Source of the DNA: Janthinobacterium rivuli
GTDB lineage: Bacteria > Pseudomonadota > Gammaproteobacteria > Burkholderiales > Burkholderiaceae_D
Length of the DNA: 64,000 bases
Direction: 5' to 3'
NCBI RefSeq assembly: GCF_029690045.1
Contig: NZ_CP121464.1
Location: 1,798,001 to 1,862,000 of the forward strand
Each line of letters starts with the position of its first letter. Position 1 is the first letter of the stretch. The position numbers were made by a program, and so were the translations under genes. Positions 46,670 to 49,962 of this stretch are shown piece by piece. Under the pieces are notes generated by a model. It was not told the DNA's origin. It did no database searches and worked only from the letters and a program-made list of their open reading frames with translations.

Positions 46670-48031
46670 TTATTCCAGACTCGCCTGCACGCTGGCGATG
46701 CCGATCTGCGCGCTGCCTTCGGCCAGGCGCACATTGACATTCTGGCGCGCCTGCAGCTGCGCCGGCGAGCGCACGATATTTCCCTTTTCATCACGCAGGA
46801 TGGCATAGCCGCGTTCCAGCGTGCGCTGCGGATTGAGCAGCTCCAGCTGCGCCGCCAGGCCGTCGAGGTGGTGGCGCCGCTGGCCCAGTTGCTGTGCCAT
46901 GGCCGCGCCGCTGCGCCGCTGCATGTCCGCCAGGCGCGCGCGCAGCACCGTGACGTCGGGCCGCAGGTTGGCCCAGCGCGAGCGCAGGCGTTCCAGCGCG
47001 TACTGCGACTGGTTGATGGGCGCGCGCGCCGCATGCGTCATGGCCGTCGACAGGGCCAGCAGCTGCAAGCGCTGTTGCTGCAGCTGCGCTTTCGGGTTGA
47101 GCAGGCGGCGGCTGTGGCGGTCCAGCGTCTGCGCCGCATCGTCGAGGCTGCGGCGCATGGCGCGGCGCAGGTCGGCCGCATCGGCGCGCAGGGAAGCCAT
47201 CCAGTCGGCGCGCGGCGTGGCCGCCAGTTCGGCCGCCGCCGTCGGCGTGGCCGCGCGCAGGTCGGCCGCGAAGTCGGCGATGGTGAAATCCGTCTCGTGG
47301 CCCACGCCGCTGATCACGGGCATGGAGCAATCGGCGATCGCATGGGCCACGGCTTCATCGTTGAACGACCATAAGTCTTCGATACTGCCGCCGCCACGGC
47401 ACACCAGCAGCACGTCGCACTCGGCCCTTGTGGATGCCGTGCGGATGGCGTGCGCGATTTTTTCCGGCGCCTGCTGGCCCTGCACGGGCGTGGGATACAG
47501 GATGATGTTGACGTGCGGCGCGCGGCGCTTGAGCGCGATCAGCACGTCGCGCAGGGCTGCCGCCTGCGGGCTGGTGACGATGCCGATGCTGCGCGCGAAC
47601 ATGGGGATGGCGCGCTTGCGTTCCTGGTCGAACAGACCTTGCGCGGCCAGCTTTTCCTTCAGGCGCTGGAACGCTTCATACAGGGCGCCCACGCCGGCGC
47701 GGCGGATGGCTTCCACGTTGATCTGGTAATCGCCGCGCGCGCCGTACAGGGTGACGAGGGCGCGCACTTCCACCTTGTCGCCTTCGCGCGGCGTGAAGCC
47801 GGCAAACTGGGCGCGGCCGCGGAACATCACGGCGCGCACCTGGGCGCCATCGTCCTTCAAGGTGAAATACCAGTGGCCGGAAGCGGCGCGCGTGAAGTTG
47901 GAAATCTCGCCGGCGATCCAGGTCAGGGGAAACGAGCGCTCGAGCAGGCGCGCGACGGCCTGGTTCAGGGCGCTGACGGTCAGCACGGGCGGGGCGGCAA
48001 AGCCGCTGTCAGTTGGGGTATCGGTCATCAT
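46670..48031 (-). CDS. xseA: exodeoxyribonuclease VII large subunit
   Basis: 453 aa. N-terminal OB-fold ([41 protein letters not shown]), then the catalytic domain with [32 protein letters not shown] and [22 protein letters not shown], and a long C-terminal coiled coil. With XseB it degrades single-stranded DNA to short acid-soluble oligonucleotides in repair. xseB is not in the window. Its start faces the DnaA-box repeat array, so its promoter lies at the edge of it. Confidence 0.94.
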
Positions 48032-48156
48032 CTGGTGCTATGGGGGAGGGAACTGTCCACATATTATCGGCGAGGTCATGCTTATGTCATATATCGTGCA
48101 AAACAACAAGTTCTATTTCTAAGTATTTGATTTCATGATGAATTCCCGTATGCCTG

Positions 48157-48253
48157 ATTTGCGTGCACGGGGAAAAAAACCTTTAATATCAAGCACATCA
48201 GTTCAGCCCCTGCCACTTACGCACAAAGTTATCCACAGAAAGTGTGCGGAACT
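48157..48253 (+). repeat. DnaA/IHF unit 1
   Basis: Most diverged unit. IHF-like site 48187-48199 (two mismatches in TTR); DnaA box TTATCCACA 48229-48237; flanks GCACA and TGTGC. Confidence 0.75.
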
Positions 48254-48314
48254 TTTTGCCTGGAACAAACATGGCCCGGCAAGCCCACATCGACCGATAA
48301 AAGTGCCTTGCTAC

Positions 48315-48411
48315 ATTTTTGCGCACGGAAATAAAGTGTATAGGAATCAAGCGCTTAGTATGCCATGCATGGCCTTGCGCACAATCTTATCCACAAAAAA
48401 TGTGCAGAACT
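48315..48411 (+). repeat. DnaA/IHF unit 2
   Basis: IHF site 48345-48357 (AATCAA-GCGC-TTA, full consensus match); DnaA box TTATCCACA 48387-48395; flanks GCACA and TGTGC. Confidence 0.82.
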
Positions 48412-48464
48412 CTGGCGCGGCGCCGGATTTATCCACGGGAAGGCCCATGGCATCGCTTGCCTGA

Positions 48465-48560
48465 ATTTTGCGCAGCATAAAAATAGCCATATAAATCAAG
48501 GATGTAGCGTAAGGCCGTGCGCCTTGCTCACAATCTTATCCACAGAATGTGTGCAAAACT
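48465..48560 (+). repeat. DnaA/IHF unit 3
   Basis: IHF-like site 48494-48506 (one mismatch); DnaA box TTATCCACA 48536-48544; flanks CACA and TGTGC. Confidence 0.8.
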
Positions 48561-48623
48561 GCATAAACCGTTTCGTGGCTTGTCCGGGTTTTCCACCGCG
48601 TGAACACGCCGAATTGCTGCCTC

Positions 48624-48720
48624 ATTTTTCAGCATGGAAAAAAACCCCTTTAAAATCAAGGCACTTGCATGGAGTCAATCGGCTTGCTCACAATCTTATC
48701 CACACTTTATGTGTGGAACT
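48624..48720 (+). repeat. DnaA/IHF unit 4
   Basis: AATCAA at 48654-48659 with TTG one base further away than consensus; DnaA box TTATCCACA 48696-48704; right flank altered to TGTGT. Confidence 0.8.
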
Positions 48721-48793
48721 GCGCTGGCGGTGGAAAACTGCCGTTTGGAAGTGCAATCGGACGTGGAAAACCCCGCTTTCCGACCTCTGCCAC

Positions 48794-48890
48794 ATTTTTA
48801 TGCATGGCAATAAAAACGATATAAATCAATGTACTTGGCGCGTATCCTTGCGCTTGCACACAATCTTGTCCACAGATTGTGTGCAGAACT
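48794..48890 (+). repeat. DnaA/IHF unit 5
   Basis: AATCAA at 48824-48829 with a 5-nt gap to TTG; box variant TTGTCCACA 48866-48874, flanked by a perfect 10-bp inverted repeat GCACACAATC (48856-48865) and GATTGTGTGC (48875-48884). Confidence 0.8.
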
Positions 48891-48930
48891 TTGACCGCCT
48901 GTTTACCGCCGATTGCGCGCCGGCTGCCAC

Positions 48931-49026
48931 TTTTTTACGCATTGATTTAATCTCCTTTAAAATCAATGACTTGATTGAATTCCTCGGCTTTGCGCACAAT
49001 CTTGTCCACAGTAAATGTGCAGAACT
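48931..49026 (+). repeat. DnaA/IHF unit 6
   Basis: IHF site 48961-48973 (full match); box variant TTGTCCACA 49002-49010, the only unit with 41 instead of 42 bp between them; flanks GCACA and TGTGC. Confidence 0.8.
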
Positions 49027-49080
49027 CTTGAATGCTTGATTTTGTGACATTGACTAATGGCGATGAGCTGCTATGCCTGT

Positions 49081-49176
49081 ATTTTTCGCAGTGCAGTAAT
49101 TCTCATGTAAATCAAGGACTTGCATGCTGGACTTCATGCTTGCTCACAATCTTATCCACACAAAGTGTGCAAAACT
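49081..49176 (+). repeat. DnaA/IHF unit 7
   Basis: IHF site 49110-49122 (AATCAA-GGAC-TTG, full match); DnaA box TTATCCACA 49152-49160; flanks CACA and TGTGC. The inverted box at 49207-49215 follows 31 bp after the unit ends. Confidence 0.82.
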
Positions 49177-49359
49177 GTGCGGCGGCAGCGTGCGCCCGAC
49201 GCGCCGTGTGGACAAGTGCCATGCGGGCGCCACTTGCCGCCGGCGCGGCAACGCGCTACATTGCGCCATTCCCGCGCGCGCGCACCATCGCACTTCGGCG
49301 CTCGGTACAATACAGGCTGTTCGGGCGATTCACCGCCTTCCCTTTACCAGGAGTTCCTT

Positions 49360-49962
49360 TTGCTCGCTATATTTCAAGCCGCTGGCTGGCCCATCTGGCT
49401 GTTGTTGATTGCTTCCATCGTCGCCCTGGCCTTGATCATCGAGCGCCTGCTGTATTTGCGCCGCGCCAAGATCCTGCCCCGCAAGCTGTTTGATGAAGTG
49501 GTGCAGGTGTATCGCAGCGGCAAGATCACGCCGGACACGGTGGCCAAGCTGGAAGACAATTCGCCGCTGGGCGTGGTGCTGGCCGCCGCCCTGCGCAACG
49601 TCGACGCGCCGCGCGAGGTGATGAAGGAATCGATCGAAGAGGCGGGCAGCGGCGTGGCCCACACACTGGAACGTTTCCTGACCACCCTGGGCACGATCGC
49701 CACCCTGGCGCCGCTGATGGGCCTGTTTGGCACGGTGATCGGCATGATCGAGATTTTTGCTTCGCCCGGCGCCACCGCGTCGAACTCGGCGCTGTCGCAC
49801 GGTATTTCCGTCGCCTTGTATAACACAGCGTTTGGCCTGGCCATTGCCATGCCGGCCCTGATCTTCTACCGCCACTTCCGCGCCCTCGTCGATAGCTTCG
49901 TCATTGACATGGAGCAGCAAGCGGTCAAATTCGTCGACATCGTCCACAGTGGCCGCAAATGA
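49360..49962 (+). CDS. exbB: ExbB/TolQ family proton channel protein
   Basis: 200 aa. Three membrane helices: WPIWLLLIASIVALALIIERL, a second near 115-140 (LGTIATLAPLMGLFGTVIGM) and a third (LYNTAFGLAIAMPALIFY). With ExbD it uses the proton gradient to energise TonB. No ATG fits: TTG at 49360 with AGGAG (49349-49353) 6 nt upstream gives the right N-terminus (LAIFQAAGWPIW). A -10-like TACAAT (49306-49311) lies just downstream of the DnaA-box array. It is translationally coupled to exbD. Confidence 0.9.
   Translation: MLAIFQAAGWPIWLLLIASIVALALIIERLLYLRRAKILPRKLFDEVVQVYRSGKITPDTVAKLEDNSPLGVVLAAALRNVDAPREVMKESIEEAGSGVAHTLERFLTTLGTIATLAPLMGLFGTVIGMIEIFASPGATASNSALSHGISVALYNTAFGLAIAMPALIFYRHFRALVDSFVIDMEQQAVKFVDIVHSGRK

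Follow-up and report, generated by a model that had tools for sequence, protein, structure and literature searches.

Seven tandem DARS2-like units between xseA and exbB in Janthinobacterium as a probable DnaA-reactivation array

Escherichia coli has two known DARS sites, which lie far apart on the chromosome. The DARS work that we found in the literature concerns this species, with two loci and one core each. The available parts of two reviews describe the DARS core as three DnaA boxes with identical spacing in DARS1 and DARS2, box I being opposed to boxes II and III and the contact between I and II being head-to-head (PMC5742627, PMC8682772). In the portions of the papers accessible to us, one review describes conservation of DARS-like sequences in many proteobacteria (PMC10380432), beta- and gamma-proteobacteria are mentioned in connection with DARS in another (PMC5742627), and the DARS2 core is considered by one study to be specific to those gamma-proteobacteria that are close to E. 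coli (PMC4245941). Because reviews already report DARS-like sequences in proteobacteria, the occurrence of DARS outside enterics is not new in itself. Our literature search found neither a tandem array of DARS nor a DARS at the xseA-exbB position; most subscription papers were outside its reach. Two other systems combine some of the same components. The E. coli datA locus resembles the locus described here in having DnaA boxes and IHF outside oriC, but it is without the 5/3 triple of boxes described below, has boxes on both sides of IHF and has the opposite biochemical effect. Bacillus subtilis also has DnaA-box clusters outside oriC, a likeness by description, but is a species without IHF and DARS according to the part of PMC13220808 available to us.

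The DNA analyzed here, which we call the window, is a 64,000-nucleotide stretch (1.798-1.862 Mb) of the 6.33-Mb, single-contig genome of Janthinobacterium rivuli. In it, a divergent gene pair is separated by 1328 bp. On the left is xseA, encoding the exonuclease VII large subunit (46670-48031, minus strand; Pfam PF02601), the product of which is 97% identical to XseA of Janthinobacterium lividum; on the right is an exbB/tolQ-like gene of the MotA/TolQ/ExbB family (49360-49962, plus strand; Pfam PF01618). Both are transcribed away from the region between them, where seven repeated units are arranged on one strand (48152-49174, minus strand, from Fis-like motif to box I). A previous sequence-only reading of this DNA had noted seven same-strand DnaA boxes, and these are present: five copies of TTATCCACA at 48229, 48387, 48536, 48696 and 49152, and two of the variant TTGTCCACA at 48866 and 49002. 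With at most one mismatch allowed, TTATCCACA has 15 matches in the window compared to 4.06 expected, and 15 was reached in none of 100 shuffles. The repeat length of ~97 bp given in the same reading was not borne out, as start-to-start spacings are 158, 149, 160, 170, 136 and 150 bp; the period is thus 136-170 bp, and the conserved portion, from the Fis-like motif through box I, is ~100 bp. Over 100 bp, the units are 48-72% identical to one another. Two additional near-consensus DnaA boxes are found outside the unit geometry, one at 48429-48437 (TTATCCACG) and one on the minus strand at 49207-49215 (TTGTCCACA). We rejected a protein-coding reading of the repeats because just one of the six spacings between units is divisible by three. 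A small-RNA reading was also rejected: no Rfam family was found (two matches were far below cut-offs), and the DNA folding of the box regions varies among units.

Each strong box is flanked by two weaker, precisely spaced DnaA boxes that, like the Fis-like element described below, were absent from the earlier reading. On the minus strand, the order in each unit is box I, 5 bp, an inverted box II, 3 bp and an inverted box III, for a total of 35 bp. In unit 1 (48217-48251), box III is at 48217-48225, box II at 48229-48237 and box I at 48243-48251. The same 5/3 spacers are found in all seven units, the remaining cores being at 48375-48409, 48524-48558, 48684-48718, 48854-48888, 48990-49024 and 49140-49174 for units 2 through 7 (all minus strand), and in E. 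coli DARS1 and DARS2. The strong box of each triple is box II, which is the variant TTGTCCACA in units 5 and 6. Boxes I and III retain the CACA half and agree with TTATCCACA at 6-7 of 9 positions, and the scores of the triples are 21-22 of 27. Boxes I and III of the E. coli DARS also deviate from consensus (7-8 of 9). When both spacers were varied from 0 to 12 (169 combinations) in the DARS1 and DARS2 stretches of NC_000913, 5/3 was the sole best combination for DARS1, and in the 4.5-kb DARS2 stretch it shared the best score, 22/27, with a 5/1 combination at another place. The 35-bp DARS2 core is exactly the sequence between the primer arms that replaced DnaA boxes I-III in a mutant, as given in the accessible part of PMC4585315, and the DARS1 core is enclosed by the published DARS1 deletion arms. 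No 5/3 triple was found in E. coli datA, where the best 5/3 match has a box I of 4/9, or in the E. coli oriC region, where the best match is 16/27.

The position of the IHF-like motifs is also fixed. A TTGATW motif is on the box-III side in 7/7 units, beginning 24 nt past the box in six of them and 23 nt past it in the remaining one. The sequence-only reading had claimed exact matches to the IHF consensus WATCAANNNNTTR in units 2, 6 and 7, which we found (48345-48357, 48961-48973 and 49110-49122, plus strand, as are all seven motifs), and near-matches in units 3-5, which requires qualification: unit 3 matches at 8/9 (48494-48506), and in units 4 and 5 (48654-48667 and 48824-48837) AATCAA is followed by a spacer of 5 nt instead of 4. 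The unit 1 motif (TATCAA, 48187-48199) matches WATCAANNNNTTR at 7/9, and WATCAA also occurs 84 nt beyond the unit 1 core. The intergenic segment contains five perfect IHF matches, those of units 2, 6 and 7 plus opposite-strand matches at 48120 and 48964, compared to a mean of 0.055 and a maximum of 1 in shuffles. In E. coli DARS2, IHF-like motifs are found at 58 and 74 nt on the box-III side, 3 bp apart, the same separation as that of the published IBS1 and IBS2 in the part of PMC4245941 available.

A third conserved element became apparent at d50-d64 in the consensus of 239 cores of named xseA loci, which had been selected for an IHF motif at 23-24 nt. Scored against the Fis consensus GnnYAnnnnnTRnnC, taken from the accessible portion of PMC8682772, these cores have a mean match of 4.46/6 at d50, compared to 1.3-2.5 at the neighboring offsets d47-d53 and a random mean of 2.0. 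The d50 peak recurs in 151 distinct congener cores, with the G and C ends present in all, and in 38 other-genus cores (95%); some species may be common to these sets and the 239, so that the sets are not fully independent. In the window, the Fis-like motif lies 26 nt beyond the IHF motif in every unit (48152-48166, 48310-48324, 48459-48473, 48619-48633, 48789-48803, 48926-48940 and 49075-49089, minus strand), and these putative sites score 4, 4, 5, 4, 4, 4 and 4 of 6. E. coli DARS2 has a full Fis consensus match at 110 nt. Thus, the order within the units, core, then IHF, then Fis-like motif, is that of DARS2. Genes for Hda, IHF-alpha and a Fis homolog (41% identical) are present in the genome.

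Three features, namely the triple with 5/3 spacing, an IHF motif on the side of box III and a Fis-like motif farther out, are indicative of DARS, that is, of DnaA reactivation. On the basis of these sequence features, we consider it probable that the xseA-exbB array consists of seven tandem DARS2-type, IHF- and Fis-regulated DnaA-reactivation modules. The locus shares with E. coli DARS2 the 5/3 three-box core with an opposed box I, an IHF motif and then a putative Fis site on the box-III side and an intergenic position. It differs in that DARS2 is one copy of 455 bp whereas the array has seven units of ~100 bp, in its flanking genes and in its shorter distances, the IHF motif being at 24 nt in the array compared to 58/74 in DARS2 and the Fis-like motif at 50 nt compared to 110. 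The core geometry of DARS1 is identical to that of the array units, but DARS1 is single copy, lies at 66% of the replichore and has no IHF-consensus match of at least 8/9 in the stretch scanned around it. The claim of the sequence-only reading that this is a DnaA/IHF control locus is well supported by sequence. That reading left open whether DnaA is titrated, inactivated or reactivated and named datA first; the core geometry and the placement of the IHF and Fis-like motifs favor reactivation, and the datA part did not stand. The reading knew of no described equivalent; E. coli DARS2 is a described relative.

Conservation among congeners follows the same elements. In an alignment of 21 congeners drawn from genus loci L001-L024 (L008 is the window; L015 and L017 were omitted because both flanking genes were not found), identity to the window base, with the window row excluded, is 0.94, 0.96 and 0.94 for boxes III, II and I, 0.96 for WATCAA, 0.97 for the 3-bp spacer and 0.86 for the 5-bp spacer. 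The corresponding value for the Fis-like 15-mer is 0.875 (0.97 for its G and C ends), and for the remaining array 0.71. With the window row included, none of 1025 circular shifts of the box and IHF mask reached the observed conservation. Recent duplication does not account for this pattern, since the units within the window genome are so divergent from one another.

The core extends well beyond the genus. The strong-box pattern is present in 23 of 24 congeners and in 0 of 16 genomes of other families. The core pattern was found in 277 of 294 family genomes, counting the window genome, and in 92 of 274 genomes of the class (91 of 273 without the window genome), with a reversed-pattern control of 0 in every genome. 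To these counts can be added loci picked by XseA, independently of the core pattern. XseA was found in 38 of 38 genomes, and the best 30 of the 38 loci were used. With G022, a genome assigned to Janthinobacterium, left out, a core is present upstream of xseA in 18 of 29 other genera, for a total of 40 cores, 38 of which have TTGAT at 23-24 nt. In three of the 11 genera without a core match (g32, g33 and g46), the triple has decayed and the IHF motif is still in position; four (g39, g43, g47 and g49) retain boxes II and III, and in the other four (g22, g29, g38 and g42) nothing is seen upstream of xseA. A test that does not use the core pattern gave the same spacing. Upstream of xseA in the 29 other genera there are 55 exact TTRTCCACA boxes; of these, 49 have a CACA box at gap 3 (1, 4 and 1 have one at gaps 1, 5 and 6), and 40 have an inverted one at gap 5 (6, 1 and 1 at gaps 3, 6 and 7). 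Gaps 3 and 5 occur together in 38 of the 55, and in 36 of the 38 ATCAA is also present at 23-24 nt.

Copy number varies among named xseA loci, for which we considered the best 80 of at least 583 relatives. In these 80, at least one core is present in 61, at least three in 49, exactly one in 12 and none in 19; TTGAT is found at 22-25 nt in 239 of the 263 cores and is missing from 24, and no core is on the opposite strand. Still among these 80 loci, those of Janthinobacterium have 6-9 cores, except L200 with 0, and those of Rugamonas have 7-8. Massilia, Duganella, Pseudoduganella and Telluria mostly have 3-6, and Herminiimonas, Noviherbaspirillum, Collimonas and Keguizhuia have one core where present. 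Seven loci are labeled Herbaspirillum, five with none (one of them incomplete), one with one core and one with four. In 11 of the 80, exbB was not found beside xseA within the stretch examined, and nine of these 11 are without a core. Absence from close relatives, which the earlier reading named as a refuting observation, occurs in one case, G022. This genome is assigned to the Janthinobacterium genus and is the source of L200 (100% over 4341 bp); its xseA and exbB are adjacent, with a 614-bp spacer (L123) and no core. The array was either lost from G022 or never gained, which shows that it can be dispensed with. A regular tandem array is also found at xseA-exbB in G054 (L112:6894-8252); of its six cores, five are spaced 245-246 bp apart.

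The array is distant from the inferred origin. The cumulative G minus C minimum of the window genome is at 360 kb (150-550 kb examined), and coarse sampling of the skew shows a sign change at ~360 kb and another between 3.54 and 3.86 Mb. This minimum is 0.36 Mb from dnaA and coincides with a DnaA-box cluster that has DnaA-trio-like repeats. The array is 1.49 Mb from it, i.e., outside the inferred oriC, and contains no DnaA-trio; we therefore ruled out an oriC reading of the array. In the probable origin (L037:3860-5328, G000:C1 359.9-361.3 kb), DnaA boxes and a DnaA-trio-like stretch occur in each of three repeats; these stretches were seen by eye, and a simple pattern matches two of the three. 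In a BLAST search, this cluster was found in 13 of 13 congeners, partial in two. A second cluster 14 kb from the probable origin (L036:5039-5691, G000:C1 346.0-346.6 kb) consists of about five direct DnaA-box pairs with a 12-bp phase and adjoins a glmU-like gene, named by eye. Neither of these two clusters contains any of the ten core-pattern matches in the genome, and their best 5/3 triples score 19-20/27 compared to 21-22 in the array, differing mainly in box I (5/9 at most). The possibility that the triple is a generic trait of DnaA-box clusters was rejected, as the core pattern is missing from these origin-region clusters and from E. coli oriC.

Replichore positions were computed for the eight genomes, the window genome and seven congeners, in which the array could be placed on a chromosome-scale contig. 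Skew was taken from the window genome alone, and in G010, G011 and G019, each with two contigs, the larger was treated as the chromosome. As a percentage of the distance from inferred origin to terminus, the array is at 47.0, 46.8, 47.4, 44.1, 44.0, 45.9 and 45.0 in the window genome and six congeners, and at 26.3% in G011. The computed positions in E. coli are 41.2% for DARS2, 65.9% for DARS1 and 20.1% for datA; a mid-replichore position, 41% for DARS2 and 44-47% for the array, is thus a further likeness between the two.

Cores at other places have a different IHF placement. Three further cores of the window genome, a single one located between priA and hemE and a pair at 4.424-4.425 Mb, have no TTGATW at 24 nt and have WATCAA at 84 nt. 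The priA-hemE core is a strong single core, scoring 25/27 (L035:3309-3343, G000:C1 117.8 kb); priA-hemE cores were also observed in genera g49, g43 and g24, where both genes were identified, and beside hemE in g44. The other two are strong cores 1.05 kb apart (L040:1936 and 2990; G000:C1 4.4239 and 4.4250 Mb), at 71.5% of the other replichore. Among priA-hemE-type and similar non-array cores of the window genome and relatives, WATCAA is at 83-86 nt in 13 of 16, and among cores from outside the family, an IHF motif is at 22-25 nt in 1 of 12 and at 83-88 nt in 5 of 12. Another family of the class includes a genome, G386, with nine core matches on seven contigs, and G168, of another genus, has three cores at 106 bp in a place other than xseA-exbB (L116:6531-6777). 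Both IHF placements are found in the unit nearest xseA, and also in single-core loci of several genera. The presence of both placements there suggests that the unit nearest xseA may be ancestral and that the other units may be tandem duplicates of the ancestral module.

Other explanations of the array can be weighed against these observations. One is that the array merely binds DnaA, with up to ~21 boxes buffering free DnaA without nucleotide exchange, in the manner of the B. subtilis clusters. The large number of boxes in one place is consistent with this, as are the support for chromosomal titration in E. coli (PMC12371093) and the six DnaA-box clusters outside oriC in B. subtilis (PMC13220808), each from the accessible part of its source. 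However, titration explains neither the constant 5/3 spacing and the opposed orientation of box I nor the fixed offsets of the IHF and Fis-like motifs, and the single-core versions kept in 12 of the best 80 named loci have few boxes and would titrate little; we regard a titration site as unlikely. A datA-like site, at which IHF stimulates DnaA-ATP hydrolysis, would likewise combine DnaA boxes with IHF, and the head-to-tail arrangement of boxes III and II at 3 bp fits ATP-DnaA oligomers, for which the available part of PMC8682772 gives 2-3 bp intervals. Yet E. coli datA is missing the triple and is located at 20% of the replichore compared to 44-47% for the array, and a DnaA box (at least 8/9, within 160 nt) on the far side of the IHF motif was found in 0 of the 11 single-core loci that have this motif. 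A datA-like function is thus very improbable.

Because the array fills a divergent intergenic region and its xseA-side location is conserved in many genera, it could instead represent DnaA-controlled promoters of xseA and exbB-exbD-lpxK. We give this little credence: the same core is found at unrelated genes, including priA-hemE, lon-ppnN, nadC-rimO and others, the region has few promoter-like matches (4, compared to a shuffle mean of 1.5), and repression needs no seven copies. DnaA boxes, tandem repetition and absence from G022 might also be expected of a replication origin, a mobile repeat or a functionless tandem-repeat accident. The distance of the array from the skew minimum and its lack of a DnaA-trio argue against an origin; moreover, the boxes and IHF motifs are conserved even though the units are just 48-72% identical, and the array occupies a single place and orientation across genera. 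We therefore consider this last group of explanations extremely unlikely.

If the array reactivates DnaA, as we favor, its action can be envisioned by analogy. ADP-DnaA arising in replication, for which the gene for Hda is present, would bind the cores, and IHF and Fis, as suggested by work in E. coli, would promote an active ADP-DnaA complex on the core from which ADP leaves. The released apo-DnaA would take up ATP, such that the array would recharge DnaA ahead of the next initiation. Tandem duplication of one ancestral module beside xseA may have multiplied the capacity of the site, and the seven modules might add capacity or cooperativity, for which there is no precedent.

The fixed offsets define a compact candidate module of ~100 bp, comprising the core and the IHF and Fis-like motifs, that is open to assay, and the variation in spacing across species shows which distances may matter. 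Copy numbers of 1 to 9 among related genera constitute a natural experiment on DARS dosage and replication timing. The core pattern in 91 of 273 other class genomes, with a control of 0, suggests an old and broad DnaA recharging cycle. We speculate, tentatively, that Oxalobacteraceae of the Massilia group time replication by a multi-copy, IHF- and Fis-gated reactivation array that could act as a capacity dial or a cooperative switch, with copy number (1 to 9) tuning initiation to genome size or growth strategy. By the same tentative proposal, DARS may be much more widespread than would be expected from the two E. coli loci and may exist in two forms, one with IHF near the core (24 nt, as at xseA-exbB) and one with IHF far from it (~84 nt, as at priA-hemE and some sites in other orders).
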